A DNA stretch of 35,058 bases from Balneolaceae bacterium (GTDB lineage: Bacteria > Bacteroidota > Rhodothermia > Balneolales > Balneolaceae). Location of the stretch: assembly GCA_020832415.1 (NCBI GenBank), contig JAFIES010000100.1, positions 1-35,058 on the forward strand. The letters run 5' to 3'. Below the pieces are notes generated by a model. It saw nothing but the letters and a program-made list of their open reading frames with translations, was not told the origin of the DNA and made no database searches. Positions 711-35,058 of the stretch are shown in pieces; within the stretch, counting starts at the first letter, position 1; every line of letters starts with the position of its first letter. Position numbers and translations under genes: made by a program.

Positions 711-808
711 ATTCTTTTTTGATTATGGGTATTTAAGGTCTAAGTAGTACAACTACCTGAAATGAGATTTTTTTGACAATTAAAAATCTATCTCTGATTC
801 ACACAATA

Positions 809-946
809 TCATGAAACCGGTGGATCATCCTGATTACCGGGTTCGGGTGGTAAAAGTTGTGCGGTTTCATCGATCAGCAGTATTTCAACCTGTGGAGTTT
901 TCCAGCTTTTTTTTTGATTTTGATTATCTTCGTTCATTGTTTCCAT
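809..946 (-). CDS. 45-residue peptide with RiPP-leader-like sequence (hypothetical)
   Basis: An open frame of 45 codons starts at ATG 946 (a second in-frame ATG is at 937) and stops with TGA at 811-809. The peptide is hydrophilic at its N-terminus, then has the segment SWKTPQVEILLIDETAQ, and ends in a Pro/Asp/Gly-rich tail (LLPPEPGNQDDPPVS). An aromatic residue, then Pro three positions on, then hydrophobic residues and a Thr is the layout of leader peptides bound by PqqD-like recognition domains in lasso-type and related RiPP precursors. There is no Cys and no signal peptide, and no maturation enzyme is visible in the window. It sits between the giant surface gene and a beta-barrel gene on the same strand. 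It could also be a random short ORF. The coding call is tentative and the RiPP reading is inference. Confidence 0.4.
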   Translation of the reverse strand: METMNEDNQNQKKSWKTPQVEILLIDETAQLLPPEPGNQDDPPVS

Positions 947-980
947 CGATTTAAGTTGGCGTTGGAGTAGACGTGAGTAT

Positions 981-1017
981 TGAGTCCTGTCCTGAGATTC
1001 TCAAGGCTCAAGACTCA
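981..1017. terminator. Imperfect hairpin after the giant surface gene
   Basis: The ends TGAGTC and GACTCA pair, and inner segments (CTGAGA/TCTCAAG) extend the stem imperfectly. It lies 11 bases beyond the stop codon of the giant gene, in the right place for a terminator or a 3'-end stabilising hairpin. No long T run follows on the minus strand, so a degraded repeat element is an equal possibility. Confidence 0.35.
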
Positions 1018-1028
1018 TATCTAATTTT

Positions 1029-7000: not shown

Positions 7001-7610
7001 ATGTCCATCTGAACGCTTGCAACTCCCATCCCGGATTAAACATAGGGCTGTGGCCTGTGATGACGTTTCCATCGGCCGAGACACTATGCGCCTCGGAGCT
7101 TGGATGATCGCCTTCGATGAAACCGCCAAGAAGTTCCATGCCACCGCCCGCCGTCCACCTAAATGCCTGATAACTTAAATTTCTGTTTTGGTCACGGCCT
7201 ACAACAACTGAACCATCTGCCGATACATCGAAGGCAAATGAAGCCAGCTCATTCGTGGACCCAAGACTGATCATTCCTCCATTGGGTGTCCACCGATAGG
7301 CTCTATCGGGAGAGAAAATACCACCTACTACTGCCTGCCCGTTACTTGCTACTCCTGTCGCTCTACTGTTCGAATGACCGGGAAGGGTGCCAAGCAAAGT
7401 GAGTCCGTCATTCTCAGTCCAGATATACCCCTGATTGCCCGCGTCAACAGTAGTATATCCCGCTACGACTCTCCCATCCGGCGATACCGCATCGGCATGG
7501 ATGGCAGGTGACGGAAGAACCTGGAATGACTGTGCCTGAATTAAAGGCACCAGTACCAAAAAGAAAAGCAGTATAAATTGAGATAGAAAAGCCTTTGTGT
7601 AGTTAGTCAT
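1029..7610 (-). CDS. Giant secreted mosaic surface protein: HAF repeats, CSLREA/beta-helix, BspA-type repeats, T9SS-type sorting domain
   Basis: A 2193-residue protein. I choose ATG 7610 (MTNYTKAFLSQF) over a GTG at 7637 because the signal peptide begins there. In order: signal peptide to about residue 27; HAF-type repeats about 35-350 (VSADGSVVVG and FRWT recur); a CSLREA-like segment about 353-403 (CTLRAAIQTANARGG); a right-handed beta-helix about 425-930 rich in Asn ladders; a linker; a PKD-like segment about 1225-1290 (DWGDGT); about seven BspA/DUF285 repeats about 1310-1550 (MSNMF, FNQDIGGWD); a cadherin-like stretch near 1610-1680; and a Por/T9SS type A sorting module at 2115-2193 (YPNPFNPSTQI, SSGIYIYRL, LTRQL). 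It is presumably exported and anchored at the cell surface; adhesion or polysaccharide binding is inferred from the repeat families. A palindromic element is inserted in frame near residue 2055, and an inverted repeat abuts the start codon. Confidence 0.9.
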   Translation of the reverse strand: MTNYTKAFLSQFILLFFLVLVPLIQAQSFQVLPSPAIHADAVSPDGRVVAGYTTVDAGNQGYIWTENDGLTLLGTLPGHSNSRATGVASNGQAVVGGIFSPDRAYRWTPNGGMISLGSTNELASFAFDVSADGSVVVGRDQNRNLSYQAFRWTAGGGMELLGGFIEGDHPSSEAHSVSADGNVITGHSPMFNPGWELQAFRWTSQNGMVPIGEIIQDSRVIVSADGNTIIGTFNPGDGVQGFRWTASTGRVALGKLPGRLNSVARGVSADGSVVVGWSRGELNEDRDAFVWTEATGMRRLQDVLEDEYGLDLTGWSLREAYDISDDGSVIVGWGRDPENERRVFRVTLTEPSVIIVNSATDNPHDSSSTTECDTGELVEIDGEEVPECTLRAAIQTANARGGATIHFDIPGDPLIFIEDGDDPLPPFESRIILDGTTQAGGFVELAGPLQGSEQGIEESNTDLVGLNVKPGGGGSEIRGMVVHSFIVANIKIGTGANGTVIENNRIGTDYSGTTAKGGGSHVCIVGGIPYSEYLGRCEQFNIIGWPYITGAGLHIMSSDNHIRDNVIAGNSLLKQVGTLFYGSVQVLIDYMAHNNRLYNNNIGIGSTGDVVNSRPELLDFFGSFGRNARGIDILGSNNIIGGAPETANRIGGHYIDLWVVNSAADMVRFDGSGDTAVPGPEGVRATGNVISHNTFGISSSFATFNEEQKEIYGFDNGVWLFGQQNRFENNEMATHRQSLYVGGESNTATGNHIKAWDIQLSNSSMWDLLAGSIDGAVIVTGKNHQVKLNTIESGEWGIQVTGTGKELDISENVIQSDEGGILISNVSRFADFEDYRLNGTIVNNNDIESDGYGILITDGVEATFKANKIKASGSGIVLPSVEDFERHNILSSDGWQRVLLKQNQIDSPVGIDLKGDGVSLRHLFIGENGPNGMLNYPVISQAVRSGNTLQFEGWFDHSVFGNKEYTIEVFGNTGCAANMYTYGSYYGAGHEYIGSHYITPLASALGNSALSFSVSGLKDEHRYVTATVSIAEEFITSEFSMCLPISVSGQTVKADTDPDASGLLLADMGVTVSTGDGIAKMNSTAGAQHNGGTLFVTKYDELPEFIEFGSFSAQSNSGNQLIPKEIAPGYWMINKFGFEVPDGSDPVEFEVCLDPTGIVHTNDLKNSVIVKRNEISEGIWNPLDSSEKFYDGITYLCAAGITEFSDFSIAAEEFLGEDSGPDFSPFITTWQVEEGDLQISIPMIGNGYDFTIDWGDGTDPEDYSNNPGDGVEHSLSHTYSEEGEYEVSISGDFPRIYFFNSPDSDKIIDVVQWGDIEWSSMERAFTGASNLNISATDAPDLSSVESMRQMFNLASSLNADLNHWDTSNITDMYMTFRRAAQFNGNIEDWKTGKVTDMSNMFIEAEMFNQDIGGWDVGEVRNMAGMFRDAKAFNQNIGSWTTVEVTNMNNLFRDAESFNGDISQWETDKVESMANMFEGATAFNQDISGWKTGNLESAFQMFNNAQNFDQDLGDWDLSSVSVLEGYESTTGLGEMFNNSGLSTENYDATLIGWAVFVENNDGPKNIVLGTEGLTYCNGADARESLINDHGWTINGDEESATCGEAPEGEDQRVLALNNTTYVFSGSDFGLGEGQSVKINSLPGKRDLNRNADDVLTFAQLNNGDLTYDSQTISYGYGYDSFEFTILGGQGTESKEAYTMTIDLAATHVMFDGQEGWRFISPPTEGESVGSLFNSVWTQGFPDSNSPNAAFNNVLQVNYAAYDWAPVSSSNSSVPPGVGTIIYVYEKDNTSDSFPKTISISNDNFFPYSDGIFWEGLFYDASQNEEDVTYLLLGNPTPYALDYCEFSRVRVADNITIWDPNTNSGAYLTMSCSEGPVAVAPLQAFWIRVQDNNPDLRFDTDAFLGEPVEGYFKQVEQDNDPFIVRLDVTGGPQSYTDGVHILFSEQSTHGHDLMDAPKLASSGLANRWLSFYALDDEGESYAIRSLPNQFDSQLTIPLGIETTEIGSYTLTWTLPEASHFSGSYYLRDTHTGSLTELREGQRYHFEIDESMAAKASNSPLERGSNDACGDEGVCPSVPGAFAMSTTEQAPRFELILSSQPLEDHNNLPTCITLAQNYPNPFNPSTQIRYELPQTEQVRLDVFDMTGRHVATLIDGQVSAGTHTVNFDARNLSSGIYIYRLQAGGQLLTRQLTLIK
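1428..1445. repeat. 18-bp perfect palindrome inside the giant gene, part of an in-frame insertion
   Basis: TCCCCTCTCGAGAGGGGA is self-complementary over all 18 bases. It encodes NSPLERGS in a stretch (about 1375-1462) that does not look like the protein around it: it is rich in Ser, Gly, Cys and Asp, whereas its flanks continue a Fn3/Big-like beta domain (HFEIDES before, PRFELILSS after). Bacterial genomes are known to carry short palindromic repeats that insert into ORFs in frame (for example the Rickettsia palindromic elements). A similar C-run/G-run hairpin lies between genes at 22793-22813. Confidence 0.6.
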
Positions 7611-7611
7611 A

Positions 7612-7674
7612 GTGATAGTATTTGATGAACCGGTCACGCCCGCCTTTGCCCGGAATTTTTGTCTATACTATCAC
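7612..7674 (-). promoter_or_regulatory. 10-bp inverted repeat in the leader, next to the start codon of the giant gene
   Basis: GTGATAGTAT (7612-7621) and ATACTATCAC (7665-7674) are exact reverse complements separated by 43 bases. In the mRNA the right arm would end one base before the AUG at 7610, so a stem would hide the ribosome binding region. No purine-rich Shine-Dalgarno sequence is present in the open form. A protein operator is an alternative. The function is inferred from geometry only. Confidence 0.4.
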
Positions 7675-7834
7675 ATGCAATGTTCGGGATTAGAAAGGCT
7701 CATTCATTTTGAAAACTTTTTAGAAAAATCTCTTGCTATTACGATTATCTTTATTAATTACTTATTAATAAATGAGTTGCAAGAAATAAAAATCATGAAA
7801 ATATTTTATTACAACCTGTTAATTAAGGTGAGAT

Positions 7835-8446
7835 CTACTCAAAAATAATTTTTCGGATCCGGTTATTTAAAAGATCGGCAACTAAAAGATTCCCATTCTC
7901 ATTGATTACCAGTCCAACAGGTGAATCAAACATCGCTTCATCTGCCGGGCCATCTTTGAACCCTTTTTCCCCGGTACCTGCTACCGTTGATACCATACCG
8001 GATGTTGATATTTTCCTTATCCGATTTCCTTGCGATTCTGCAACGTAAATTGTTCCCTCATTGGCTATCGCCAGTCCATGGGGATCATGAAATTGAGCGT
8101 TTAATGCTTCACCGTCGGCATATCCCCGCTCGCCATTTCCGGCAACAACGGTAACATCACCGTTTGGGGTGAGCTTGCGTATCATGTGATTTCGGGTGTC
8201 TGAGATGAAAATATTTCCATCACCATCTATTGCCAAACTTGTGGGCCAGCGAAAGGATGCTTCCGTACCATTTCCTTCAGCAAAGCCAAACTCGCCACTT
8301 CCTGCAATTGTTGTTACCTGTTGATCAGGTGTAATCATTTTAATTCAATTGCCGTCCATGTCTGCAATGATTACATCTCCCTCAGAATCAATTACAAGCC
8401 CATCCGGCAACTAAAAACTCGCTGAACCTACGGAACCATCAATTCA
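7835..8446 (-). pseudogene. NHL-repeat (six-bladed propeller type) protein, C-terminal remnant with two nonsense codons
   Basis: The longest open part starts at an internal ATG (8338) and runs 167 residues through three to four NHL repeats (LAIDGDGNIFISDTRNHMIR; LAIANEGTIYVAESQGNRIR; LVINENGNLLVADLLNNRIR), each preceded by an AGTGE..G..DG turn. It ends naturally at RKIIFE. Upstream in the same frame the family pattern continues across two stops: DGSVGSASF-stop-LPDGLVIDSEGDVIIADMDGN-stop-IKMITP. The stops are TAG at 8413-8411 and TGA at 8347-8345. The TGA stands exactly where AGA (Arg of NRI) is expected. The frame ends upstream at about 8446, where another gene fragment in a different frame takes over. 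NHL proteins of this type are usually extracytoplasmic. I regard it as non-functional. Confidence 0.7.
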
Positions 8447-8862
8447 GGCTCACTTCTGCCAACCACATCAGGCCGATTAGTGCGGCCATAAACAGCGTGC
8501 AAAAATCGCAGGTAATCAGCAGGAGATGATACCCAGCCCCCCTGGTCATCTTTTATGGGCAATGTTTAACCACCATATGCTGATTCTACCTGCCCCCTGT
8601 CCGGATAAACTGAATTCATTATTACCGAATCATGATATCTTTCTACATCTTGCAAACGTTCTTCAAAAAACTTGTTGCCAATTACCATACTTTCTGCCCT
8701 AAGCTCAACTTGAAACCGGAGTGTATCTCCGGTCAAAAGTAATCCCTGCTGTGGTGTTAATTCTACTGTAGCAACGTCCAGGTTTGGTGGGGCCTTTGGT
8801 TTCTCGGGATCGCTGCCGGTTATGCTCTCGCTGCAGGAGTTTAGAATGAACAAGAAGCTCAT
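8428..8862 (-). pseudogene. Chimeric remnant: lipoprotein start fused to a serine hydrolase (class C beta-lactamase-like) fragment
   Basis: From ATG 8862 the frame reads a lipoprotein-like start (FILNSC, Cys10) and a Big-like beginning (VATVELTPQQG, GDTLRFQVEL). After about residue 57 it changes to sequence typical of the middle of beta-lactamase/PBP4-like serine hydrolases: LQDVERYHDS, YPDRG, ESAYGG, then after an in-frame TAA (8568-8566) DDQGGWVSSPADYLRFL and VYGRTNRPDVVGRSEPELM, ending in TAG at 8430. The catalytic SxxK region is absent. The hydrophobic segment of the signal peptide continues upstream of ATG 8862 without a good start codon (LTSLLVVV), so the original start is also damaged. 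Its 3' end overlaps the start of the NHL remnant in another frame. The likely history is several deletions joining pieces of different genes. Confidence 0.6.
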
Positions 8863-9086
8863 TACTACAACTAGTAAACTAGTTAACTCTTTACTGATTC
8901 CAAGTCTGTTTTTAATTTCGTCTATAACTTTTCTGTATTAATTTCACGGTTTCAACTCTACATGCATGAAAAACAGATAATAGAGCTCATTGATGTTCAA
9001 CATCTATGGCAGAGGTTGTCAGTTCAAAATTCTGATACTTATCCGAATTAATTACTTTCATAAATATTACCGAATGAATGGTTGTC

Positions 9087-9737
9087 TCAAAAAACAAAGC
9101 CGGCGACTATTGTAAATACCCTGTGTTTTTCCCCTTCATCTGATCGATCTTCATAGACTGCAGACAAACCCAGTCCATATCTTGCCTGAATATTGAAGTT
9201 GCGGTTGCTGATTTCAAAATCACCTCCCGCCCCAATAATCGCACCGAATCCTGTCTTTTTGATTTCCGCAGAAATATCTTCGATATAGGCGATGTTTTTG
9301 CTCGCTTTCACTTCAGAATTCAGATTAATATCGAGATATGGCCCCGCCAGCAGATATGGACGGAAAGCGCTCTCCGTTCCAAACCCATATTTAGCCAATA
9401 CCGGTATTTCAAGATAATCGAGTTTGAATGTGCCGGCATTGCCTTCGTAATCACCTTTAATGATCGCCTCCTTGTATCTGCCTTCTGCTCCTTTTTGCGA
9501 ATAATAAATACCCGTTTCTATGTCCACCGGCCAGGAATCGGCTGAATAGTTGAGGTCAAAACCCGCAAAAAGACCTGTTCTGGCACTTAATTCATGTGGC
9601 CCACCTGAAAGATTTGAAAAGTTGAGACCGGCTTTTACTCCAAATTGCAATGACGACTGTGCAAAAATAGTTGTTGTTATTCCAAGAATAAAAGCCAGAA
9701 CCAGGCAAAGCTTTTTCACTGATTTTCTTAGTCCCAT
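9087..9737 (-). CDS. Outer-membrane beta-barrel (PorT-like) protein
   Basis: A 216-residue protein. Signal peptide at residues 1-27 (LCLVLAFILGITTTIFAQS), then the hallmark opening FGVKAGLNFSNLSGG of the outer-membrane beta-barrel/PorT-like family common in Bacteroidetes and relatives. Further strands follow (GLFAGFDLNY, ETGIYYSQKGAEGRY, YLEIPVLAKYGFG, FRPYLLAGPYLDINL, GFGAIIGAGGDFEI, FNIQARYGLGLSAVY) and a last strand ending FTIVAGFVF with terminal Phe. The LEIPVLAKY motif is a strong family mark. It is transcribed away from the ECF sigma gene at 9973; the shared 235-base gap holds palindromes that could serve either gene. Ligand and role are unknown. Confidence 0.85.
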   Translation of the reverse strand: MGLRKSVKKLCLVLAFILGITTTIFAQSSLQFGVKAGLNFSNLSGGPHELSARTGLFAGFDLNYSADSWPVDIETGIYYSQKGAEGRYKEAIIKGDYEGNAGTFKLDYLEIPVLAKYGFGTESAFRPYLLAGPYLDINLNSEVKASKNIAYIEDISAEIKKTGFGAIIGAGGDFEISNRNFNIQARYGLGLSAVYEDRSDEGEKHRVFTIVAGFVF

Positions 9738-16121: not shown

Positions 16122-16517
16122 TTATCCGCCCTGAGCATTTACAAGTTCAAGCTGACTGGGATCGTTGTATTTGGAGGGACATTTCATCAGCATTTCATTC
16201 GCATGAAATACATTGTTTCTCATCTCACCAACAACAACAAGCTGGGTAGCCTGTTCAAAGTTATTAGGTTTTGGCCTTGGGTAAACCACACGACGAACAT
16301 TTCCGTCCTGATCTTTCATATGAAATGAAAACTGCATGGTTTCTCGTGAGAATCCGTGAGCCTCAGAATTTTCCCAGGTACCAATTACATGAGATGTTGT
16401 TCTGTTTTCTGCTTCTTCGAAATTAACATACGTACTGATGCTGTTTCCGAAGTTATACATTAACAGTGAGGTGAAAAATACGATGGCAAGTACACCAAAA
16501 ATTAGTTTAGGCTTCAT
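16122..16517 (-). CDS. ccmE: Heme chaperone CcmE, CXXXY type
   Basis: A 131-residue protein: one N-terminal membrane helix (residues 5-22), then the OB-fold heme chaperone domain (YVNFEEAENR, VIGTWENSEAHGF, MQFSFHMKDQDGN, VVVGEMRNNVFHANEMLMKCPSKY). Classical CcmE binds heme covalently through His in an HXXXY motif; here the position reads CPSKY (Cys113, Tyr117), the Cys variant known from Desulfovibrio, archaea and some other lineages. The start overlaps the end of the CcmD-like gene by 11 bases. It receives heme delivered by CcmC and passes it to CcmF. Confidence 0.93.
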   Translation of the reverse strand: MKPKLIFGVLAIVFFTSLLMYNFGNSISTYVNFEEAENRTTSHVIGTWENSEAHGFSRETMQFSFHMKDQDGNVRRVVYPRPKPNNFEQATQLVVVGEMRNNVFHANEMLMKCPSKYNDPSQLELVNAQGG

Positions 16518-16752
16518 CGGAGCTATCTTTTATCAGTTCTTCTAGTTTAGATACATTTCTGTCAACTTTAATCAGGTAAAACAGCAGCACGAACCAAATT
16601 ATGAGGCTTACCCCAAGCACAACAAAAATCAGGTCGTTTGATGCCATGAATTGAACAAAGCCGGACGACTGTTCAATGCCCTCTAAGCCCTCCCATCGAT
16701 CGGAGTAGCTGCTTGTGAGAGTATCAACGGCGGTTGATGCGGTTTCTTGCAT
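16507..16752 (-). CDS. ccmD: CcmD-like small membrane protein of heme handling
   Basis: An 81-residue protein with a single membrane helix (about residues 36-57, FVVLGVSLIIWFVLLFYLI) and the CcmD-type arrangement: FVQFMASNDLIFVVLGVSL before the helix and a charged tail KVDRNVSKLEELIK after it. CcmD stabilises and releases holo-CcmE from the CcmC complex. The assignment depends mainly on position between ccmC and ccmE (11-base gap upstream, 11-base overlap downstream), because CcmD proteins have little sequence conservation. Confidence 0.8.
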   Translation of the reverse strand: MQETASTAVDTLTSSYSDRWEGLEGIEQSSGFVQFMASNDLIFVVLGVSLIIWFVLLFYLIKVDRNVSKLEELIKDSSDEA

Positions 16753-26087: not shown

Positions 26088-27374
26088 TTGAAAACTGAAC
26101 TTCAGCGAGTCATCAAAACCCCGGGTGCCATTTTTATGGGGCTTGGGTCTATCATCGGGACAGGTATTTTTGTAAGTATTGCCATTGGAGCCCAAATTGC
26201 GGGCAATGGTATCATCATTGCTATTATGATTGCGGCGCTACTTGCCATTTTTAACGGTTTAAGTAGTGCACAACTTGCCGCTGCACATCCCGTAAGTGGC
26301 GGAACCTACGAGTATGGATACCGTTTTCTCGGTTCCTATTTTGGTTTCACTGCAGGCTGGATGTTTATGACGGCAAAATCTGCCTCAGCTGCAACAGCCG
26401 TTCTGGGTTGTGCAGGCTACCTGTTCTACTCGTTTAACCTCGATGGCAGCTATGCAGCCATTACAGCAACCGGACTGGCAATTCTTCTACTCATGACTCT
26501 GCTGGTTTCCGGAGGAATTAGCAGAAGCAACCTTGCCAATAAATTTATTGTAACCATCACACTTTTGGGTTTACTCGCTCTTGTATTGGCCGGATTTTTT
26601 GTAAACGGAGTTCCAACCCAGCCTCTAACCGATGCATTCACCGATATTTCAGCCTCATCCATTCTCTATGGAGCTGCCCTGATGTTTGTGGCTTATACCG
26701 GTTATGGCCGTATTGCCACACTTGGTGAAGAAGTGGCCGAGCCGAGAAAAACCATTCCTAAAGCGATTATCCTGGCAATGGTTATTATTGTGCTTCTCTA
26801 TCTTTTGGTATCACTTACGGCATTGCAGGTGATGGGAGCTGAAGCATTTGGAAAGACAGTTGCCGGCGAAGCTGCTCCGTTGATGGTAGTGGCAGAAGTT
26901 CTTTCGGTTCCGGTTATAGGCCCCATTATCAGCATTGCAGCGATAACAGCCATGCTTGGTGTGCTGCTTAATTTAATGTTAGGCCTCTCCCGGGTTCTCT
27001 TAGGTATGGCACGCAGAAAAGATGTACCTGGAATTCTGAGCAGAATAAATCCTCAATCAAAAAGTCCGGTTGCATCTGTTTTGGTTACCGGTGGTATAAT
27101 CGCTGCACTTGTGCTTAGCGGCGATGTAGTTTTTACCTGGTCGTTCAGTGCGTTTACCGTACTCATTTACTACTCTATAACAAACCTCTCTGCACTGATG
27201 CTCCCAGAAAATCTGCGGCTCTATCCGCGTATTATTCCGGTTATGGGATTATTTGGATGCCTGTTTCTCGCCTTCTGGATCGATCCAATAATCTGGATTG
27301 CAGGTTTAGTCCTGATAGGAGTGGGGCTGATCTGGCACACCATAGCTTTGCGCCTGCAAGCTGGTCAGGAGTAA
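26088..27374 (+). CDS. APC family amino acid permease
   Basis: A 428-residue membrane protein with 12 likely helices. Helix 1 carries GLGSIIGTGIFVS, the unwound Gly-rich segment that binds the amino acid in LeuT-fold permeases. SGGTYEYGYRFLG and GYGRIATLGEEVAEPRKTIPKAI are further APC marks. The start must be TTG 26088 (encoding MKTELQRVIKTPGAIF); the next ATG (26136) would cut into helix 1. The neighbouring DoxX gene ends ten bases before. Substrate unknown. An exact 35-bp repeat begins 20 bases after the stop. Confidence 0.88.
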   Translation: MKTELQRVIKTPGAIFMGLGSIIGTGIFVSIAIGAQIAGNGIIIAIMIAALLAIFNGLSSAQLAAAHPVSGGTYEYGYRFLGSYFGFTAGWMFMTAKSASAATAVLGCAGYLFYSFNLDGSYAAITATGLAILLLMTLLVSGGISRSNLANKFIVTITLLGLLALVLAGFFVNGVPTQPLTDAFTDISASSILYGAALMFVAYTGYGRIATLGEEVAEPRKTIPKAIILAMVIIVLLYLLVSLTALQVMGAEAFGKTVAGEAAPLMVVAEVLSVPVIGPIISIAAITAMLGVLLNLMLGLSRVLLGMARRKDVPGILSRINPQSKSPVASVLVTGGIIAALVLSGDVVFTWSFSAFTVLIYYSITNLSALMLPENLRLYPRIIPVMGLFGCLFLAFWIDPIIWIAGLVLIGVGLIWHTIALRLQAGQE

Positions 27375-27393
27375 GAGCAACCACTTTTAGCCA

Positions 27394-27428
27394 CATTGAA
27401 GCGTCCGAAGGTCCTTCAATCGTGGCGG
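27394..27428. repeat. 35-bp direct repeat, copy 1
   Basis: This 35-base stretch is identical to 31272-31306. It contains an inverted repeat, ATTGAAG (27395-27401) and CTTCAAT (27414-27420), around a 12-base loop, and ends GTGGCGG. It lies 20 bases after the APC permease stop. Confidence 0.9.
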
Positions 27429-27714
27429 GTGCAGACATTATACCTATTAGTGATTAGCCAAAACTTCCATCACTGATCTATAAAGCTGCTATGAAAATGA
27501 GAGGAACAAAAAAAAGATTTGTTTTTTAAATTTTTTTTAGTTCTATTATTTCATGTACTTATCTATAACATCAGCTATATCAATATTAAATACTTATCAT
27601 TAGTTGTGCAAGTTTCAGGAGGTTTTTGAATACCAATCACTCCATAAGTTACAAGCAGGCCTGTTCATTCTAATCGGTAATAGTACGTTTAATTCATCAA
27701 AAAGAGGCGCTTAC
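27429..27714. other. A+T-rich non-coding stretch before the beta-helix lipoprotein
   Basis: No gene is visible. The sequence has long A and T tracts (around 27508-27550), which would suit a promoter or a region acquired from elsewhere. An SD-like AGAGGCG lies just before ATG 27715. A GTG at 27604 opens the same frame, but its added residues look non-coding. Confidence 0.5.
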
Positions 27715-29403
27715 ATGAAAACACAACTCTATCACTATTTTATAATCTTAATCACTTCCCTTTTACTCATTGCAATCGTCACATCCTGTAATGATAGCCA
27801 TATCGCAGCCATCGATCAGGGCGAAATGGATGCGGCAACCATTGGAAGTGTGAGTTCATTGTCAAACCAGGAAAAAGGCAAGTTAAGCCCGCAAGAAGCT
27901 TATGATGCCTTTTTTGATATGGTTGAGAAAGTGCAAAGCATGCAGCGGGAGGAAATTAAAACACTATCAGACAGTGAGATCATCGACCTTGGGCAGCCAA
28001 TTTTGGATGCTACAAGAAATACTATACTGTTAGATAAAAATGTTCTTGATACAATTACAAGCTTAGTCAATGAAAGAATCCTCTATGATAGAGATCTGAC
28101 GAAAATGGAGCATTTAAAACTCAGCAAACTGATTGAAAGTAAGATTTCAAGTGCAGGAATATCTAGAAGGGAATTGCAGGTCAATGATGTAAAACAAATC
28201 TTGCTTGATTTTCAAAAAAAAGAAGGCATCGAATCGATGTCCACCTGCAGCAGCCTGTTTAATGTAGGTGGTGGTAATGTTATTCTATTTCCGGGGGATC
28301 AATTAAATCTAGCAAATATGATCTGCCCCTCAGATTCTTACTTTTATTTGACTGGAGGCACATACTACAACCAATCCGTATTTAATTCTAAAAATGGTAA
28401 TCAGTGGGTGGGTGCAGGCAACTTTCAGGCTATAATAGATGGCCTAAATTCAAGCCCTTCGGCATTTGTCGGGGGTATGTCCAATAATTCTATCAGATGG
28501 ATGGAAATTCGAAATTATCAGTCACATGGTATATACTCTACCAGTACTTCTACAATGGGGTTGAGTATTAACAATATGAGATTTTATAATATTGTACCAG
28601 ACATTACTGGCCCAAACACAGGTCCAAATGCTGTAGGGCAGAGTAATGCTGCAATAACCCTGTGGAACTCAGAAAACATAAGTATAGAGAACTCTTATTT
28701 TGAAAATGTACTTTCAGGCATCAGATTAGTAAATAGTAAGGGACCACTACAAGTTCTTAACAATGAAGCTTTGAACCCAGGTCGAAACTTTTTCCAGTGT
28801 AATAATTGTGAGGGAGGTGGTATCCGGATAAATGGAAATTCTCTGGAGCACACTACAGGTTTTGGAAATTCTATCTTGGAAGATTGGTTTAATCTTTGGG
28901 AATCTGAAGGAACTCATAATGACTATATCCAAATTAAAAACAATCGTGCAAGAGTTATTCTGAGTAACGGGCAAGCAACTAAAGTTTCAAATTCTGGATG
29001 TATGGTGTTACTCGGAGATAATGGAGGTAAATTTCAGCAAGCAAAAAATAACATTGGAGTAAATCCAGGAAATTGTGGCATTGGGTTGGCATCTGGAAAA
29101 AACATGTATATTTCAGAAAACAAAATGTACAGTGCTGCCGTGCCAGGAGTATCTAATGTCGCATTTTATTCAATTAATTTTTACAGCCCAAAATCCTGTA
29201 AATATCATCATTTTGTTTCACAGAGCAACATTGCTGATTGGATTTGTGACAATCCGGAACGTTGTGATAGCCCACCTGAAAAAAATCTTGCAGATGCTGA
29301 TGGTAGCTGTACTGGTCAAAATGATAATCCTATTACTCGTACAATATTGGAAGGTTTGATTAAGGATCAAACTTTGGGAGCAGGTATTTGGAATGACTGG
29401 TAA
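27715..29403 (+). CDS. Right-handed beta-helix lipoprotein, surface, function unknown
   Basis: A 562-residue protein from ATG 27715. Lipoprotein signal with lipobox IVTSC (Cys at about residue 23). Residues about 50-170 are helical and charged (EKGKLSPQEAYDAFFDMVEKVQS, ILYDRDLTKMEHLKLSKLIESK). From about residue 190 on there are beta-strand repeats with Asn ladders (ISIENSYFENVLSGIRLVNSKG, LQVLNNEALNPG, IRINGNSLEHTTG, YIQIKNNRARVILS), the pattern of right-handed parallel beta-helix (pectate-lyase/NosD-like) proteins. Unusually many Cys pairs (CNNCEGG, GCMVLLG, NPGNCGIG, CDNPERCDSP) may form disulfides. No catalytic residues can be assigned. The gene looks richer in A+T than its neighbours and lies inside the repeat-bounded patch, so transfer is plausible. 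Confidence 0.75.
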   Translation: MKTQLYHYFIILITSLLLIAIVTSCNDSHIAAIDQGEMDAATIGSVSSLSNQEKGKLSPQEAYDAFFDMVEKVQSMQREEIKTLSDSEIIDLGQPILDATRNTILLDKNVLDTITSLVNERILYDRDLTKMEHLKLSKLIESKISSAGISRRELQVNDVKQILLDFQKKEGIESMSTCSSLFNVGGGNVILFPGDQLNLANMICPSDSYFYLTGGTYYNQSVFNSKNGNQWVGAGNFQAIIDGLNSSPSAFVGGMSNNSIRWMEIRNYQSHGIYSTSTSTMGLSINNMRFYNIVPDITGPNTGPNAVGQSNAAITLWNSENISIENSYFENVLSGIRLVNSKGPLQVLNNEALNPGRNFFQCNNCEGGGIRINGNSLEHTTGFGNSILEDWFNLWESEGTHNDYIQIKNNRARVILSNGQATKVSNSGCMVLLGDNGGKFQQAKNNIGVNPGNCGIGLASGKNMYISENKMYSAAVPGVSNVAFYSINFYSPKSCKYHHFVSQSNIADWICDNPERCDSPPEKNLADADGSCTGQNDNPITRTILEGLIKDQTLGAGIWNDW

Positions 29404-29614
29404 CAATTAGATGTATTGTTGTAATTCTTGACCACAATTAATCTTTTACTCATAGTTATAAAGCGAGTTCATTTATTGATCACACTCGATTGCACCGGTT
29501 CTTTTGCCACTGAAAAACAGAGAATCACGGAGTATTCTGAGAGTATATCTGTGCTTATGTTGCAAATCCAGATATTCAGAGTCTTCTAATGAAATTTAGT
29601 AATCCTCCAAAGTC

Positions 29615-29654
29615 CACAATGCTTCAAGATGGCAGATACACTTGAAGGTTGTTA
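29615..29654. repeat. Hairpin element H1
   Basis: CTTCAAG (29622-29628) and CTTGAAG (29641-29647) form a seven-pair stem with a 12-base loop, with CACAAT before and GTTGTTA after, which can extend it (ACAA with TTGT). It closely resembles 31350-31388, with a base-pair change that keeps pairing. It lies just upstream of the GLUG lipoprotein start. Confidence 0.7.
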
Positions 29655-29688
29655 CATTATGTATATGCAACAGAAAATCAACATCATC

Positions 29689-31263
29689 ATGATAAATAAA
29701 AGAATTCCAAAACTAATCCCTTTTTTATCAGCAATACTTATCGCCATTTTTGTTTCTTTAACTGGCTGCTCCACTGACAGCCAATCTTATGACTTTATAT
29801 TAACGATCGAAATAATCCCGGAAGGATCCGGAACCACAGACCCATTACCCGGTGGATTCGATGAAGGAGAAAATCTTCGATTAAGGGCTATTCCTGATGA
29901 GAATTACCTGTTCGATCGGTGGGAAGGGGATTTGACCACAGTTTCGAATCCCGCCGATTTAACCATGAACAGTGATAAATTCATTACTGCCATTTTCAGC
30001 AGGGCACCGCTTACCATGGGTGGCGACGGATCGGAGGCCAATCCTTACCATGTACACTCGCTTGCCGACCTTGTTGCCATAGGGTTAGAAGATAATCTAG
30101 ACAAGCACTTTATCCAGATGCAAGATATTGATGCTTCCCCATCGGCTGATTTTCAGGATGGATCGGGGTTCAGGCATATTGGAACACAAGAAGCACCCTT
30201 TACAGGATCTTTCAATGGAAATGGTTATAAAATCATAGACCTGAAAATACATTTTAACAGGTTTGATAAACACATCGGGTTGTTTGGATACATCAAAGAG
30301 GCCACCCTGGAAAATATTTATGTGGACAACAGCAGGCAGCTGGCCGATTCACAAACGGATCACCAATCCACCTATAATCTCATTCTCAATCAAACAAATG
30401 TATTACCTTCTTATGAAATTGACATCTTTGGTTCTCAAAGCGCCGGAGGGTTGGTTGGTTTTAATGAGGATGGAATTGTTCGGAACTCATTTTTTAATGG
30501 AGTTGTAGTGCTACAAAGTGGTTATGTAGCGGGGCTTGTAGGGATTAATACAGGTATCATCGAGAAGTTACATTTTATAGGAAGGGCTGGTAACTTAGGT
30601 ACTACTGCCGGCCTTGTAGGTATTAATACCGGAAAAGTTGTTGATTCTTCCAGTGGAGGGCGAATAAGTGGACAATTGGCAGCCGGCTTGGTTGCCCGTA
30701 ATATTGGAGGAGAAATACTTCAATCATCTACAATTGCCACTGTACATAGCAGCACTGCGATCGGAGGCTTAGTATTCTATAACTCTGGAGTTATTCGTTC
30801 TTCTTTTAGTAAAAATAATGATATATATGATGCAACCGGGGCGATTGGTGGCCTCGTTGCACGAAATAACGGAGAGATTATAGACTCTTATTCAATTACG
30901 GAATTGGAAAGTTTTTTTGACCCAAACAGAGATATTATCATCGGGGGGCTGGTTGGGGAAAATCTTGAAAATGGCAGTATTCAAACCTCCTTCGCTGCCG
31001 GTTATATATTGCCATTAGAGCAGAGTATTTTAGGCGGTTTGGCCGGTAAAAACAGCGGGGTGTTGATGAATGTATATTGGGACACCGACTCCACAGGCCA
31101 GGCCATAGCCGTGGATCAAGGCAACCCCGAAGGTGCCACCGGCCTCACAACTGACCAGTTGACCGGCCCCGCCGCCGAACAGAACATGCCGGAGTTCGAC
31201 TGGGTAAATGTTTGGAGAACTACCGCGGACGGATACCCGGTTTTGAGGTGGGAGGATGAGTAA
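29689..31263 (+). CDS. GLUG-motif lipoprotein with an N-terminal InlB-type repeat domain
   Basis: A 524-residue protein. I start at ATG 29689 (MINKRIPKL) because a lipoprotein signal follows, with lipobox SLTGC (Cys about 26); earlier in-frame codons from 29629 run through the H1 hairpin and add no signal features. Residues about 35-105 form a divergent B-repeat (Big-like) domain (IIPEGSGTTDPLPGG, ENLRLRAIPDENYLFDRWEGDL). Then come GLUG-type beta-repeats with the motif GGLVGxNxGxIxxS (AGGLVGFNEDGIVRNSFF; AGLVGINTGKVVDSS; GGLVARNNGEIIDSYS; GGLVGENLENGSIQTSFA), and the terminal FDWVNVWRTTADGYPVLRW. Such proteins are surface adhesin- or protease-domain-like in other species; here no enzyme domain is present. 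It lies between two copies of a direct repeat. Confidence 0.85.
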   Translation: MINKRIPKLIPFLSAILIAIFVSLTGCSTDSQSYDFILTIEIIPEGSGTTDPLPGGFDEGENLRLRAIPDENYLFDRWEGDLTTVSNPADLTMNSDKFITAIFSRAPLTMGGDGSEANPYHVHSLADLVAIGLEDNLDKHFIQMQDIDASPSADFQDGSGFRHIGTQEAPFTGSFNGNGYKIIDLKIHFNRFDKHIGLFGYIKEATLENIYVDNSRQLADSQTDHQSTYNLILNQTNVLPSYEIDIFGSQSAGGLVGFNEDGIVRNSFFNGVVVLQSGYVAGLVGINTGIIEKLHFIGRAGNLGTTAGLVGINTGKVVDSSSGGRISGQLAAGLVARNIGGEILQSSTIATVHSSTAIGGLVFYNSGVIRSSFSKNNDIYDATGAIGGLVARNNGEIIDSYSITELESFFDPNRDIIIGGLVGENLENGSIQTSFAAGYILPLEQSILGGLAGKNSGVLMNVYWDTDSTGQAIAVDQGNPEGATGLTTDQLTGPAAEQNMPEFDWVNVWRTTADGYPVLRWEDE

Positions 31264-31271
31264 TATAGCCT

Positions 31272-31306
31272 CATTGAAGCGTCCGAAGGTCCTTCAATCG
31301 TGGCGG
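31272..31306. repeat. 35-bp direct repeat, copy 2
   Basis: This stretch is identical to 27394-27428, including the ATTGAAG/CTTCAAT arms. It begins eight bases after the GLUG lipoprotein stop, and the H2 hairpin follows 43 bases later, before the serA stop. Confidence 0.9.
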
Positions 31307-31349
31307 ATGAATGCCCAAACATTCGAAATCGAATCCACATCCCGCAACT

Positions 31350-31388
31350 CACAACGCTTCGAGGTGCGGGCACGCTCGAAGGTTGTTA
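31350..31388. repeat. Hairpin element H2
   Basis: CTTCGAG (31357-31363) pairs with CTCGAAG (31375-31381) around an 11-base loop, and CACAAC before with GTTGT after extends the stem. The stem changes A:T in H1 to G:C here with pairing kept. It could slow or stop transcription at the convergent junction with serA. Confidence 0.7.
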
Positions 31389-31408: not shown

Positions 31409-32998
31409 TTAACTAAGTGAGATATACTTTACGTTGTGAACTCCCTCGAGTTCTGTGATGGATGATAGCTCATCGCTGTTGAGTTGTCGGTCCACAATTA
31501 CAGCAGTAATCGCGTTTGTACCTTTCCCTTCCCGGCCCAGGCTAAGTGCGGCAATGTTGATATCCTGGCTGGCCAGTTTACCCGCAACGGATGCAAGCAT
31601 GCCCGGTCTGTCAATATTCTGATACATCAAAATATCTCCTTCAAGGCGCAATTCAATCCCAAATCCATCAATCTCAATGATTCTGTAATCTCCGGGGCCA
31701 AATACAGCCGCTGAAATTTGAGCATACTGCGTACTGTCGCCCAGTTTGATGGTAATCAGATCATTGTAGTTTTTGTCATCGCTCTTGTTGGTTTCGCTTA
31801 GTTTGAAACCTCGTTCAACAGCATAATGGCGGGCATTTATCAGATTAACAGAATCATCCACGTATGGCGTCAGCATTCCTTTGAGAATGGAATCCGTAAG
31901 TACATCTGTGTATTTAGTGCATACACCGGTGTATTCAAATGAAAAATCTGTGGCATTTTTAGGCATGATTTGACCGGATACCCGGCCCAGTTTTTCAGCC
32001 AGCTCCACATAAGGCTGAACCTCTTCGTTGGTGAGAAGAGAGATCGATTTACTGTTCAGACTGCCTTTATAACTCTTGTTTTCAAGTGCATCAGCAATTT
32101 GATGTGCTATTTGTACGGCTACTTTCTCTTGTGCCTCCTCGGTTGATGCACCCAAATGCGGAGTTGTTATAATTGCGGGATGATTCAGGGCTTCATACAT
32201 CTCCGGAGTGGGTGGTTCTGTAGAATAGACATCAAGTGCTGCACCGGCTACAATTCCCTGCTCAATGAGTGGTTTCAAGTCTGTCTCTTTATAAATTCCG
32301 CCCCGTGCACAATTTATTAACCGGATACCTTTTTTTAGCTTCTCAGCATTCTCGAGGGAAATCATATCCCTGGTTTTTTCGGTAAGTGGTGTGTGGACAG
32401 TCAGAAAATCGGATGTCTTTAGAAGTTCATCCAGTTCTACCAATTCAACACCAAGATTTCTGGCATGCTCCTGAGTCGTAAACGGATCATAAGCATACAG
32501 CTCCATTCCAAACTGCTTCATTCGCAGTGCAACTTCGGAGCCAATTTTTCCAAGGCCTACAATACCGAGACGCTTTCCATGCACTTCAGTTCCCATGAAT
32601 TTCTTTCGGTCCCATCCCCCGCTTTTCACACGCTCTACAGATTGCGGGATATTGCGTGCTAAAGCCAATATCATTCCACATGTGTGCTCTGCAGTCGAAA
32701 TGGTATTGCCGTCGGGTGTATTCATCACCAGAATTCCTTTTGTGGTAGCTGCGGGGATATCAATATTATCAACCCCAACACCTGCACGTCCAATTATCCT
32801 GAGGTCTCCAGCATGCTTCAGTAATTCTGCATCTACAGTTGTTGCACTTCGAACCACAACCGCAGCATACGTACTAATAACCTTCTTTAATTCGTCAAGA
32901 GAAAGTTTTTCGGGCTGATCTGCATGAATCCCCCTTTTTTCAAAAATTTCTGCGCAAATTGGGTCTACACTATCAAGTAAAAGTACGTTGTAAGGCAT
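31409..32998 (-). CDS. serA: D-3-phosphoglycerate dehydrogenase (long form, ACT domain)
   Basis: A 529-residue protein of the long (type I) PHGDH form, which oxidises 3-phosphoglycerate to 3-phosphohydroxypyruvate, the first step of serine synthesis. The NAD Rossmann core has RLGIVGLGKIGSEVA (GLGKIG, 148-153). Catalytic Arg232 (NCARGG), Glu261 (YSTEPP) and His281 (HLGAST) are present. An intervening domain (about 300-450) and a C-terminal ACT domain (about 455-529, YQNIDRPGMLASVAGKLAS) complete it; in the long form they can allow serine feedback. The gene follows engB by 22 bases in one operon with purF. Confidence 0.96.
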   Translation of the reverse strand: MPYNVLLLDSVDPICAEIFEKRGIHADQPEKLSLDELKKVISTYAAVVVRSATTVDAELLKHAGDLRIIGRAGVGVDNIDIPAATTKGILVMNTPDGNTISTAEHTCGMILALARNIPQSVERVKSGGWDRKKFMGTEVHGKRLGIVGLGKIGSEVALRMKQFGMELYAYDPFTTQEHARNLGVELVELDELLKTSDFLTVHTPLTEKTRDMISLENAEKLKKGIRLINCARGGIYKETDLKPLIEQGIVAGAALDVYSTEPPTPEMYEALNHPAIITTPHLGASTEEAQEKVAVQIAHQIADALENKSYKGSLNSKSISLLTNEEVQPYVELAEKLGRVSGQIMPKNATDFSFEYTGVCTKYTDVLTDSILKGMLTPYVDDSVNLINARHYAVERGFKLSETNKSDDKNYNDLITIKLGDSTQYAQISAAVFGPGDYRIIEIDGFGIELRLEGDILMYQNIDRPGMLASVAGKLASQDINIAALSLGREGKGTNAITAVIVDRQLNSDELSSITELEGVHNVKYISLS

Positions 32999-33020
32999 GT
33001 TTGTAATGCTGTTGATTTGG

Positions 33021-33614
33021 TTATTCAGTTTCTAAAAAATCGGTTATTAGTGAGTGTATATTCTCCGTTCCTGCCCCGTTATCTGCCGAACAGGGAATTA
33101 CAGGCACTTCAATATTCATTTCACTTAAAATTTGTTCAGTCTTCTTTTTTGCCGAAGCCAGTTTATTCTTCGACAATTTATCCGACTTGGTAAGCAGTAC
33201 GGCAAATGGTTTCTCATTGGATGCCATCCAGTAAAAAAACTCTTCATCCAGCGCGGTGGGGTTGTGCCTTGAATCCACAAGATGCATGATCAATTTCAGT
33301 GTTGATCGTTTGCTGAGGTATTCGTGAATATCGCGCCCCCATCGATCGCGTTCTTTTTTGGGCACTTTGGCAAATCCGAAACCAGGCAGATCCACAATGT
33401 AAAATTGATTATCAATCTCATAGAAATTCATCTGCTGGGTTTTACCCGGAGTATTACTGGTTCTGGCCAGCCTTTTTTTATTGGTAATTCTGTTGATCAG
33501 TGAAGATTTTCCCACATTCGATCTGCCTGCGAAGCAAATTTCGGGTAAGCTCGGTTCAGGGCAATCATTTAATGATGGAGCGGATGTGATAAATGTCGCT
33601 TTTTGAAAAGCCAT
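33021..33614 (-). CDS. engB: Ribosome biogenesis GTPase EngB (YihA/YsxC)
   Basis: A 197-residue GTPase of normal family length. G1 GRSNVGKS (30-37), G2-region Thr in RTSNTPGKTQ (51-60), G3 DLPGFG (75-80) and G4 TKSD (142-145) are all present, with the family text EICFAGRSNVGKSSLIN. EngB is needed for large ribosomal subunit assembly. Its ATG shares one base with the purF stop (TAATG), so translation is coupled. Confidence 0.97.
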   Translation of the reverse strand: MAFQKATFITSAPSLNDCPEPSLPEICFAGRSNVGKSSLINRITNKKRLARTSNTPGKTQQMNFYEIDNQFYIVDLPGFGFAKVPKKERDRWGRDIHEYLSKRSTLKLIMHLVDSRHNPTALDEEFFYWMASNEKPFAVLLTKSDKLSKNKLASAKKKTEQILSEMNIEVPVIPCSADNGAGTENIHSLITDFLETE

Positions 33615-35058
33615 TAAACAATTTCGTTTTCTTCTTTCTCTACACTAAAATCAACGGGAACCGGATATTCGCCTGTGAAACATGCTGTACAGTATGAGTG
33701 ATGTGAATCATTGGCATCTTTCACAGCGCTAACAAGCCCTTCTGCAGAGAGATAACGCACACTATCCACCCCGATTTCGCGGGCAATTGCATCTACATCA
33801 CTGTTAAATTTGTTGGCAATCAACTCTTCCGTGCTGGGGAAATCCATTCCATAAAAACAGGGATGCGTTATTGGCGGAGAGCTCACAAGAAAGTGAATTT
33901 CAGCGGGATTTGCCTCACGTATCATTTCAACCAAATAGCGGGAGGTGGTGCCCCGAACAATTGAATCGTCCACGATAATTACAGAACGCCCTTCAATCAC
34001 TCCCCGAACCGTATTGAATTTTGTTCGCACTTTCTGTTCGCGGGATTTTTGACCGGGTGATATGAATGTTCTCCCCACATAGTGATTTCGAATCAGCCCG
34101 ATATCGTACTTGCAATCGAAGCCGGCTTTGTTGCTCTCATGAGCGTAACCAATGGCTGCAGTATTACTGGAATCGGGCACAGAGATTACAATTGGCCTTC
34201 TGTCTGACCTACTGCCTTTTATCACCTCATCCAGCGGATGCTCTTTCGCGAGCTGTTTTCCGAGATTTCTTCGGATTTTATCGACATTTTCACCAAAAAT
34301 TCTGCTATCCGGCCGTGAAAAATAGACATATTCAAAAATGCACTGGCTGGTTGTTGTGCCGGTCTTGGGTTCCAGATAGTAAGACTGGATATCACCATCT
34401 TCAAACGCGTTGCGATCTATTACCAGTACCTCGCCCGGTTCCACATCACGGATATACTCTGCCCCGATGATATCGAACGCGCAGGTTTCGCTCGCTACGG
34501 TGTAGGCTCCATCAATTACGCCAAGTGCCAGCGGCCTGAAACCGTTAGGATCGCGCACGGCAATCAGTTTGTCATCAGTGAGAATCACAAGACAGTAGGC
34601 ACCTTCAATTTGGCTGAGGGCATCTAATATCTGATCGATTTGATTCTCTTCCCTGCTGTGAGAGATAAGGTGCAGGATCAGTTCCGTATCGGACGTGCTC
34701 TGAAAAAGCACACCTTCATCACGAAAACGCTCTCTGAGAGTTCGTGCATTGGAGAGATTTCCATTATGGCCAATTGCAAGATTGCCGGTTCTGTAGTGAA
34801 CCCTGAATGGCTGAATATTGGCCGGGTTTTTTGCCGCACCCGATGTTGAGTAACGGTTATGGCCAATAGCAGAGCGGCCTTTCAGCTCACGCTTGAAAAT
34901 TTTTGAATCATCAAAAACCGAGAGAACAAGACCGAAATTCTTATGCATCGGCATAATGTAACGGCTTTTTTTATCATCAAAATAGGTTGAAACTATGCCT
35001 GCTGATTCTTGTCCACGGTGTTGAAGTGCGTGTAAACCGTAGTAGGTGAGTAGTGCGG
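33614..35058 (-). CDS. purF: Amidophosphoribosyltransferase PurF, partial (5' end beyond the window)
   Basis: The open frame continues through the window end. Upstream of the internal ATG 34954 it reads LTYYGLHALQHRGQESAGI, the conserved N-terminal glutaminase text, so the start with catalytic Cys1 lies outside. PRTase motif SVIIVDDSIVRGTTSR. Cys positions TSQCIFEYVYFSRPD, HPCFYGMDFPS and HSYCTACFTGEYP match the four [4Fe-4S] ligands of the Bacillus subtilis-type enzyme. It makes 5-phosphoribosylamine, the first step of purine synthesis. It shares a base with the engB start. Confidence 0.96.
   Translation of the reverse strand, partial: ALLTYYGLHALQHRGQESAGIVSTYFDDKKSRYIMPMHKNFGLVLSVFDDSKIFKRELKGRSAIGHNRYSTSGAAKNPANIQPFRVHYRTGNLAIGHNGNLSNARTLRERFRDEGVLFQSTSDTELILHLISHSREENQIDQILDALSQIEGAYCLVILTDDKLIAVRDPNGFRPLALGVIDGAYTVASETCAFDIIGAEYIRDVEPGEVLVIDRNAFEDGDIQSYYLEPKTGTTTSQCIFEYVYFSRPDSRIFGENVDKIRRNLGKQLAKEHPLDEVIKGSRSDRRPIVISVPDSSNTAAIGYAHESNKAGFDCKYDIGLIRNHYVGRTFISPGQKSREQKVRTKFNTVRGVIEGRSVIIVDDSIVRGTTSRYLVEMIREANPAEIHFLVSSPPITHPCFYGMDFPSTEELIANKFNSDVDAIAREIGVDSVRYLSAEGLVSAVKDANDSHHSYCTACFTGEYPVPVDFSVEKEENEIV

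Follow-up and report, generated by a model that had tools for sequence, protein, structure and literature searches.

The window, a stretch of 35,058 nucleotides from the genome of a Balneolaceae bacterium (G000), contains an exact 35-bp direct repeat between an amino-acid permease gene and serA, a junction which we call site A. The following features were assigned to it:

26088-27374, plus strand: APC-type amino-acid permease (Pfam AA_permease), the conserved left neighbour of site A
27388-27431, plus strand: LE (left REP hairpin), holding the first 35-bp copy, without adjoining RE
27715-29403, plus strand: lip1, lipoprotein-like, 562 amino acids, lipobox VTSC, GC 38%, between LE and RE
29614-29654, plus strand: diverged RE (right REP hairpin), resembling the type of the relatives G013 and G004 (nhmmer E=4e-5)
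29689-31263, plus strand: lip2 (GLUG-B), a GLUG / Flg_new_2 lipoprotein (Pfam), lipobox LTGC
31266-31309, plus strand: LE of a complete REPIN, holding the second 35-bp copy
31350-31387, plus strand: RE of the complete REPIN
31409-32998, minus strand: serA, phosphoglycerate dehydrogenase (Pfam), the conserved right neighbour of site A

The order is therefore LE, lip1, diverged RE, lip2, full REPIN and serA. The exact recurrence of 27394-27428 at 31272-31306, from which the original prediction started, was confirmed (0 matches in 100 shuffles), and the pair grows to 44 bp with 95% identity and two mismatches (27388-27431 and 31266-31309). Both copies lie directly 3' of stop codons as had been described, the first 44-bp copy 13 bp past the permease stop (27374) and the second starting 2 bp past the lip2 stop (31263), and each carries the described 7-bp inverted repeat, ATTGAAG/CTTCAAT. 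In addition to it there is an inner stem and an outer GCCAC/GTGGC pair, the latter with one mismatch in copy 2. Both enclosed genes are indeed lipoprotein-like and have a lipobox; for the lipoproteins, surface exposure as well as function is presumptive. For lip1 no Pfam family was found at E<=0.001, and its single-sequence structure model (pLDDT 33.5) is unusable for the label 'beta-helix'. Rfam gave zero matches in the window at gathering scores, and the window holds no tRNA genes, hence no tRNA target. A second variable patch in the window (about 624-9095) is without REPINs.

The 35-bp repeats are one half (LE) of a REPIN, an inverted pair of REP hairpins composed of LE and RE. Once reverse-complemented, RE shows the same stem-bulge-stem plan as LE, and in both hairpins paired positions covary: 8 of 16 LE pairs are changed on both sides, a value reached by none of 500 shuffles, and 6 of 15 RE pairs, reached by one of 500. 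Further pair types in LE, one of five measures, were equalled by 27 of 500 shuffles, and at LE pair 16-24 the bases do not match in 19 of the 37 rows. These counts use 37 of 47 distinct LE and 39 of 52 distinct RE sequences. The distinct sequences came from 72 LE and 62 RE matches, after copies truncated at contig ends and copies of unusual length had been removed; the counts further exclude all rows that differ from 40 bases in length and all broken or interrupted copies, including the window RE at 29614-29654. The consensus feet of LE and RE are CCRCMACG. Neither consensus sequence contains, on any strand, the GTAG tag of the GTAG-tagged REP superfamily, and there is no conserved foot of this kind in the single rows (GTAG in 4/37 LE and 3/39 RE, CTAC in 1/37 LE and 6/39 RE); the family was therefore not assigned to that superfamily.

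In the window's own genome the exact 35-bp repeat occurs nine times (0 for the reversed-pattern control), and blastn found 19 clear LE copies on six contigs, often in tandem, and a diverged one on a seventh (C132). The REPIN copies are extragenic, dispersed between main genes. With about 20 copies in the assembly, the scatter over hundreds of gene ends, against which the original prediction had warned, is not seen.

The same prediction had stated that no recombinase is present. This is correct for the five window proteins scanned, but a gene for a RAYT-like Y1/HUH transposase lies elsewhere in the genome, inside a REPIN array on contig C58. It is flanked on both sides by REPIN parts in G000 and in the relatives G002 and G013 (site E); in G024 the RAYT gene adjoins cl3, a gene of site D, and is interrupted by a stop. 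The HUH motif N-H-x-H and the tyrosine-containing motif YIHRNP are invariant in five aligned proteins; the catalytic role of the tyrosine is assigned by analogy with the family. The family score is the weak point of the assignment: NCBIfam REP_Tyr_transpos (NF047646) matches with E=3e-10 and 40 bits, under its cut-off of 80, Y1_Tnp reaches 16 bits, under its cut-off of 23, and the best PDB match, TnpA-REP (4er8), is weak (E=0.29), with the HUH part aligned only below threshold. Integron cassettes (attC) had been considered because the repeats come after stop codons, and were set aside once a RAYT-like gene and hairpins in inverted arrangement had been recognised.

Comparison with relatives showed that gene content at site A differs between genomes. 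The permease has a match in 37 of 57 relatives (E<=1e-60), and an LE lies at the same position 3' of it in G002, G004 and G013. Site A of G004 holds two tandem REPINs and zero lipoprotein genes, and that of G013 holds two GLUG genes, GLUG-A and GLUG-B, each between REPINs. The G013 gene adjoining serA is 77% identical to lip2 on the amino acid level and, among 25 loci searched in frame (L093-L117), only G013:C65 matched lip2. For lip1 no match was found among these loci, and none at site A in G004 or G013. In G002 (contig C160) the permease is followed by the LE and then by sequence that precedes lip1 in the window (97% over 145 bp); the right boundary falls at the LE, where only 25 bp of the other cargo is assembled. 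A strain with a single repeat copy and without lipoprotein genes, which had been expected for excision or insertion, was not found; the gene-free G004 has two REPINs. Of the alternatives originally posed, exchangeable cassette or REP-type element, the evidence favours both together, since the repeats are REPINs and lipoprotein content varies at site A; a crossover exactly between the two 35-bp copies is hypothetical.

Other REPIN sites behave in a similar way. Sites B and C carry different lipoproteins in different species. At site B the cargo of G000 shows no relationship to the cargo in G002 and G013, the crossovers lie in neighbouring genes, away from the REPINs, and in a single contig identity is high to the left and to the right of the cargo, a profile that fits a replaced tract. 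The site-B lipoprotein cl45 looks vertical in descent, as its divergence between G002 and G013 (0.583) is like that of its neighbours (0.459 and 0.516). At site C different GLUG alleles are attached to a REPIN and flank of 97% identity, and the crossover lies at the GLUG 3' end. At site F the cl5 gene of G002 is separated from the REPIN by an extra OmpA-like frame of 300 amino acids; in G000 about 50 bp lie there. Site D has REPINs and zero cargo in five genomes. At some of the sites the lipoprotein genes between the hairpins vary by species, and these sites look like swap spots for such genes. Speaking against a link of variation with REPINs, a 3.3-kb gap on contig C95 is without REPINs, like the second variable patch of the window.

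Fourfold divergence between G000 and G013 is 0.291 for GLUG-B and 0.267 for GLUG-A, compared to 0.590 pooled over nine core genes of similar fourfold base composition. The GLUG genes are younger than the core, and their divergence of 27-29% against 59% therefore places their exchange after the species split.

We therefore propose a low-copy REPIN family located at sites where lipoprotein genes are gained, lost and exchanged, most likely via homologous recombination, and assign this reading a probability of about 0.6. It is probable that the RAYT-like transposase of C58, provided that it was active, once copied the REPINs, which lie at a few intergenic sites and have multiplied there in tandem. 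At several of these sites whole genes, mostly for lipoproteins, lie beside or between the REPINs and are gained, lost and exchanged among related Balneolaceae, presumably by RecA-type recombination of incoming or intragenomic DNA. The homology used may have come from the core genes at the flanks, from the conserved 3' end of the GLUG genes and possibly from the hairpins of the REPINs, as crossover points. The crossovers located lie in flanking genes and at the 3' end of GLUG, and thin evidence places one at an LE; these positions fit homologous recombination better than movement of genes by the RAYT-like protein.

The most serious competing explanation, which we regard as possible but doubtful, is that ordinary gene-end REPINs are bystanders and the lipoprotein genes vary for reasons of their own. 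REPs are described as mostly downstream of coding regions (PMC3733652), and the site B crossovers in flanking genes agree with this. GLUG and lip1 genes occur in varying number also where REPIN matches are few or absent. Moreover, G000/G002 identity is bimodal across sampled contig starts, therefore mosaicism is not peculiar to REPINs; contig C190 of G002 was dropped as a contaminant candidate since many sequences of the two genomes show its level of identity to G000, about 76%. However, four REPIN sites (A, B, C and F) vary in gene content, a coincidence biased by the search, as the sites were located via REPINs. In addition, direct repeats flanking the gene left and right at up to 1.5 kb were commoner at GLUG-like (lip2-like) loci, with 4/10 positive (20 loci; 4 too short, 6 under the score threshold), than at permease loci, with 0/25 (30 loci, 5 too short), or serA loci, with 0/21 (44 loci; 8 too short, 15 without qualifying match; some are one contig counted twice), in a small sample with core genes as lenient control. 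For lip1-like loci 1/17 was positive (20 loci, 3 too short). Of these positives, five in all, L167 and L180 belong to a single module of G011 and L174 is the REPIN studied here; the window's own lip1 and lip2 were negative in this test.

It is rather unlikely, in our estimate, that the REPIN arrays of these Balneolaceae serve as permanent docking points for envelope-protein cassettes drawn from a common pool. In such a system RAYT-maintained hairpins would provide homology or nicks, cassettes would be swapped between sites and species, and surface variation would depend on a domesticated transposase.

That the RAYT itself moves LE-gene-RE units as composite elements by excision and insertion appears improbable. 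The position of lip1 between an LE and an RE would suit such a unit, as would the REPIN-bracketed RAYT gene at site E in three genomes against its place near cl3 in G024, and the RAYT gene is younger than the core (fourfold divergence 0.340 against 0.590). However, the RE near lip1 is of the G013/G004 type and accompanies the GLUG leader as in G013 (29613-29695, 81% identity to the G013 RE plus GLUG leader), none of the crossovers at site B or site C lies within a REPIN, and the G013 GLUG genes and G002 cl45 have REPINs on both sides instead of a single LE and RE.

Chimeric assembly or mixed bins at repeats are a very improbable source of the variation: although G002, G004 and G013, which carry the argument, are MAGs, six contigs (G000:C38, G000:C58, G002:C160, G002:C105, G002:C131 and G002:C124) start or stop at or near REPINs, so that misjoins are possible at single junctions, and the neighbour gene of site C is present twice in the G002 bin, in different versions (C145 and C190), separate assemblies agree on junctions (permease-LE-pre-lip1 in G002:C160, GLUG-REPIN-serA in G013:C174) and high identity lies on either side of the site-B cargo in one contig.

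The preferred reading, REPINs at sites of homologous exchange, links a REPIN family and a RAYT-like gene to the gain, loss and exchange of lipoprotein genes in an uncultured, free-living group that is distant from Neisseria, for which repeat arrays next to surface genes had been described. If REPINs do promote exchange, the effect should be measurable by comparing REPIN-bearing with REPIN-free intergenic sites. The REPIN/BIME elements with RAYT (TnpA-REP) of Pseudomonas fluorescens SBW25 and E. coli are likewise two inverted, imperfectly palindromic, bulged hairpins with a variable spacer, extragenic, dispersed and in tandem clusters, with a Y1/HUH transposase gene adjoining copies. In contrast, the family described here has about 20 copies, feet of CCRCMACG without a conserved GTAG, a transposase under the curated cut-offs, and REPINs that bracket lipoprotein genes. 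The repeat arrays of meningococci and the minimal mobile elements are close parallels. Like the REPINs, the neisserial dRS3/NIME arrays are short palindromic intergenic repeats next to variable surface genes; according to a review (PMC3898611) dRS3, a repeat of 20 bp, has almost 700 copies, pilC1 lies between repeat arrays in one strain, and identical dRS3 are a possible site of its integration or deletion. PMC3733652 classes dRS3 as a CGTC-type REP without a transposase of its own, whereas here few copies are accompanied by a RAYT-like gene. In the minimal mobile element of Neisseria, whole-gene cassettes vary between two conserved genes via homologous recombination (PMC3898611). Different whole-gene cassettes between the same conserved neighbours are also found at sites A and B, here with REPINs at the sites and related cargo at more than one of them.

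The exact 35-bp repeat pair of the original prediction was confirmed: both copies are identical, beyond chance expectation. Each lies inside a left hairpin (LE), and a REP-type element, one of the two options the prediction had offered, describes them well, as the second copy is half of an element in REPIN arrangement and the family is multi-copy in this genome (G000). In the window, the hairpins lie around lip1 and GLUG-B, the two lipoprotein genes between a permease gene and serA:

27388-27431, LE with the first 35-bp copy, without adjoining right hairpin (RE)
29614-29654, diverged RE between the two lipoprotein genes
31266-31309, LE of a two-hairpin element, holding the second 35-bp copy
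31350-31387, RE partner of the second LE

The layout of LE and inverted RE is that of a REPIN, as defined in a passage of PMC3116915. LE and reverse-complemented RE share a common plan of outer stem, bulged base, 7-bp stem, bulged base, inner stem and loop. For the LE (37 distinct sequences) both sides had changed in 8 of 16 pairs and 91% of the cells were paired, either value being reached in 0 of 500 shuffles; for the RE (39 distinct sequences) 6 of 15 pairs were changed on both sides (1/500 shuffles) and 95% were paired (0/500). GTAG was not found as a conserved foot of LE or RE; the consensus foot is CCRCMACG, on the strand with the foot before the stem. The genome-wide count proposed earlier gave 9 exact LE copies in the G000 assembly (3.94 Mb, 152 contigs) and 19 by blastn, located on contigs C19 (6), C38 (2), C58 (6), C95 (1), C100, i.e., the window (2), and C152 (2), with one further, diverged LE on C132. 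Many copies are tandem, spaced by ~134 bp on C38 and C58 and ~224 bp on C19. The spacer of the longer REPINs on C19 (L229:11952-12662 and 16329-16594) contains an additional hairpin, GGTATTTCT...AGAAATACC; a hairpin repeat resembling it flanks a GLUG gene of the related genome G020 on both sides, and in G010 part of it is found upstream of one module. Some LE of G013 and G004 have a ~20 bp insertion in one stem arm (L125:461-500, L125:2059-2098, L096:816-855), as though a further short element had inserted there.

An open frame between REPINs on C58 encodes a RAYT-like transposase whose N-H-x-H and YIHRNP motifs do not vary among five aligned proteins. It matches NCBIfam REP_Tyr_transpos (E=3e-10, under the curated cut-off) and Pfam Y1_Tnp (16 bits, cut-off 23), and the top PDB match of the five-sequence profile was TnpA-REP 4er8, weak at E=0.29. 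Homologues (E<=1e-5) occur in 18 of the 28 genomes of the genus, including G000; the closest are in G002 (93%) and G013 (82%, with one TGA within the matched stretch). Any REPIN match was found in 16 of 58 genomes, G000 counted, and most were in G000, G002 and G013 (26, 22 and 15, respectively). G004 and G025 have 4 and 5 REPIN matches though they lack a RAYT hit, and no REPIN match came from some genomes whose RAYT homologues are more distant; this comparison rests on the G000 query. At the RAYT site (site E), occupied by the gene in G000, G002 and G013, G025 has one REPIN without it.

For the junction of permease and serA (site A), 24 permease loci were fetched from the 37 relatives with a match, and both genes were adjacent on one contig in nine. 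Seven of these nine gaps are ~60-270 bp long, without REPIN; that of G017 (1.3 kb) holds an unrelated 308-aa frame, and that of G004 (~380 bp) two REPINs in tandem, of which the second is interrupted, and zero lipoprotein genes. In G022 and G009, ysxC follows the permease and serA is absent there. G013, pieced from two contigs sharing 121 identical overlapping bases, reads permease, three REPINs, GLUG-A, REPIN, GLUG-B, REPIN, serA, the last two REPINs having interrupted LE hairpins. The predicted exchangeable cassette was borne out in part: content varies (no lipoprotein gene in G004, GLUG-A and GLUG-B in G013), but a strain with a single repeat copy and no lipoprotein gene was not found. In G002 the left contig matches G000 at 96% across the permease and the LE and ends in the stretch that precedes lip1, and the right contig starts 25 bp ahead of a stretch 95% identical from LE through serA. 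Those 25 bp match the final bases of a small lipoprotein gene of G000 site B, not a GLUG gene (97% over 72 bp, mostly LE). This small lipoprotein has 0 matches in assembled G002, thus that site-A cargo is unassembled.

Site B is flanked by cl19, which encodes a large lipoprotein, and by a gene which we take to be aat. Its cargo is two small genes in G000, one with and one without lipobox, and a different lipoprotein, cl45, in G002 and G013. G000/G002 identity is mostly 93-99% to the left, 78-86% across the REPIN and roughly the final 500 bp of cl19, none over the cargo, 70-86% in aat, 95-97% for ~1 kb beyond and mixed (70-97%) further out. The exchanged tract thus appears bounded inside the neighbouring genes, not by the REPINs. 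At site C, ahead of a TPR-like gene (labelled by eye), G000 carries GLUG-A, whereas in G002:C145 the same REPIN and TPR-like gene (97%) are joined to a lip1-like gene and a different GLUG gene, the identity setting in within that GLUG gene, 135 bp from its 3' end; G002:C190, of the same bin, has a third GLUG gene. Site D holds only REPINs, in five genomes. At site F, where ~50 bp separate the cl5 gene from the REPIN in G000, G002 has one frame in between:

L124:5215-6117 (G002:C200), 300-aa frame with OmpA-like end (by eye), beside the site-F REPIN array

It is possibly a non-lipoprotein cargo; the most similar of the other sequences compared with it reaches 35% over 130 residues, and on the far side of the array there are other genes.

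Nine core genes, each close to a REPIN site, gave fourfold-degenerate divergences of 0.53-0.67 between G000 and G013 (pooled 946/1602 sites). The value was 0.291 for GLUG-B (148 sites, Fisher p 2e-12), 0.267 for GLUG-A of G000 site C against the C65 part of GLUG-A at G013 site A (116 sites, p 1e-11) and 0.340 for RAYT (47 sites, p 8e-4), where sites are not independent. Fourfold base composition of GLUG resembles core genes; RAYT is more AT-rich. The low divergence indicates exchange of the GLUG genes later than the split of the species, and one gene type, GLUG-A, now sits at different sites in G000 (C) and G013 (A). This pattern is not shared by all cargo, as cl45 (G002/G013) gave 0.583, similar to its neighbours.

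Variation also occurs without REPINs. A second variable window patch (~624-9095) has none and shows only similarity fragments in G002, G004 and G013; within it, 1029-7637 (-) encodes a 2202-aa secreted-looking multidomain protein (labelled by eye). C95 has a 3.3-kb gap without REPIN. In a G000/G002 sample (starts of 20 contigs against starts of 40), eight blocks (34.4 kb) were bimodal in identity, ~94% (12.2 kb) versus 75-83% (22.2 kb). Jumps between ~96% and ~78% were seen inside contigs (window 33000-35058 against G002:C124; L269/L270 against L267/L268), which points either to extensive recombination between species or to MAGs that are composite. Mosaicism between G000 and G002 is general; exchange is common in these genomes, and REPIN sites are among its places. 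REPINs are candidates for a causal role.

Direct repeats of other families surround some GLUG genes (G020, 144 bp, identical; G010, 259 bp, 96.5%; G011, 432 bp, 93%). In G011:C1 (L198:8670-13858) the latter precedes a lip1-GLUG pair and recurs ahead of another GLUG gene; a lipoprotein module seems to have been duplicated there, with another repeat family. A first comparison of the two sides gave no repeat pair flanking the module in G015, G005 and G017, nor in G019, where a later flank-repeat test found a 53-bp pair.

REPINs and RAYTs are already known. No prior report of REPIN-bracketed lipoprotein exchange was found in the open-licence literature, among the matches listed. For Neisseria, PMC3898611 describes arrays of repeats next to variable surface genes, as well as cassettes of whole genes lying between conserved ones, and dRS3 is classed as a CGTC-type REP without transposase in a passage of PMC3733652. 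We call the REPIN-bracketed lipoprotein exchange a variation on the known REPIN/RAYT and Neisseria cassette themes.
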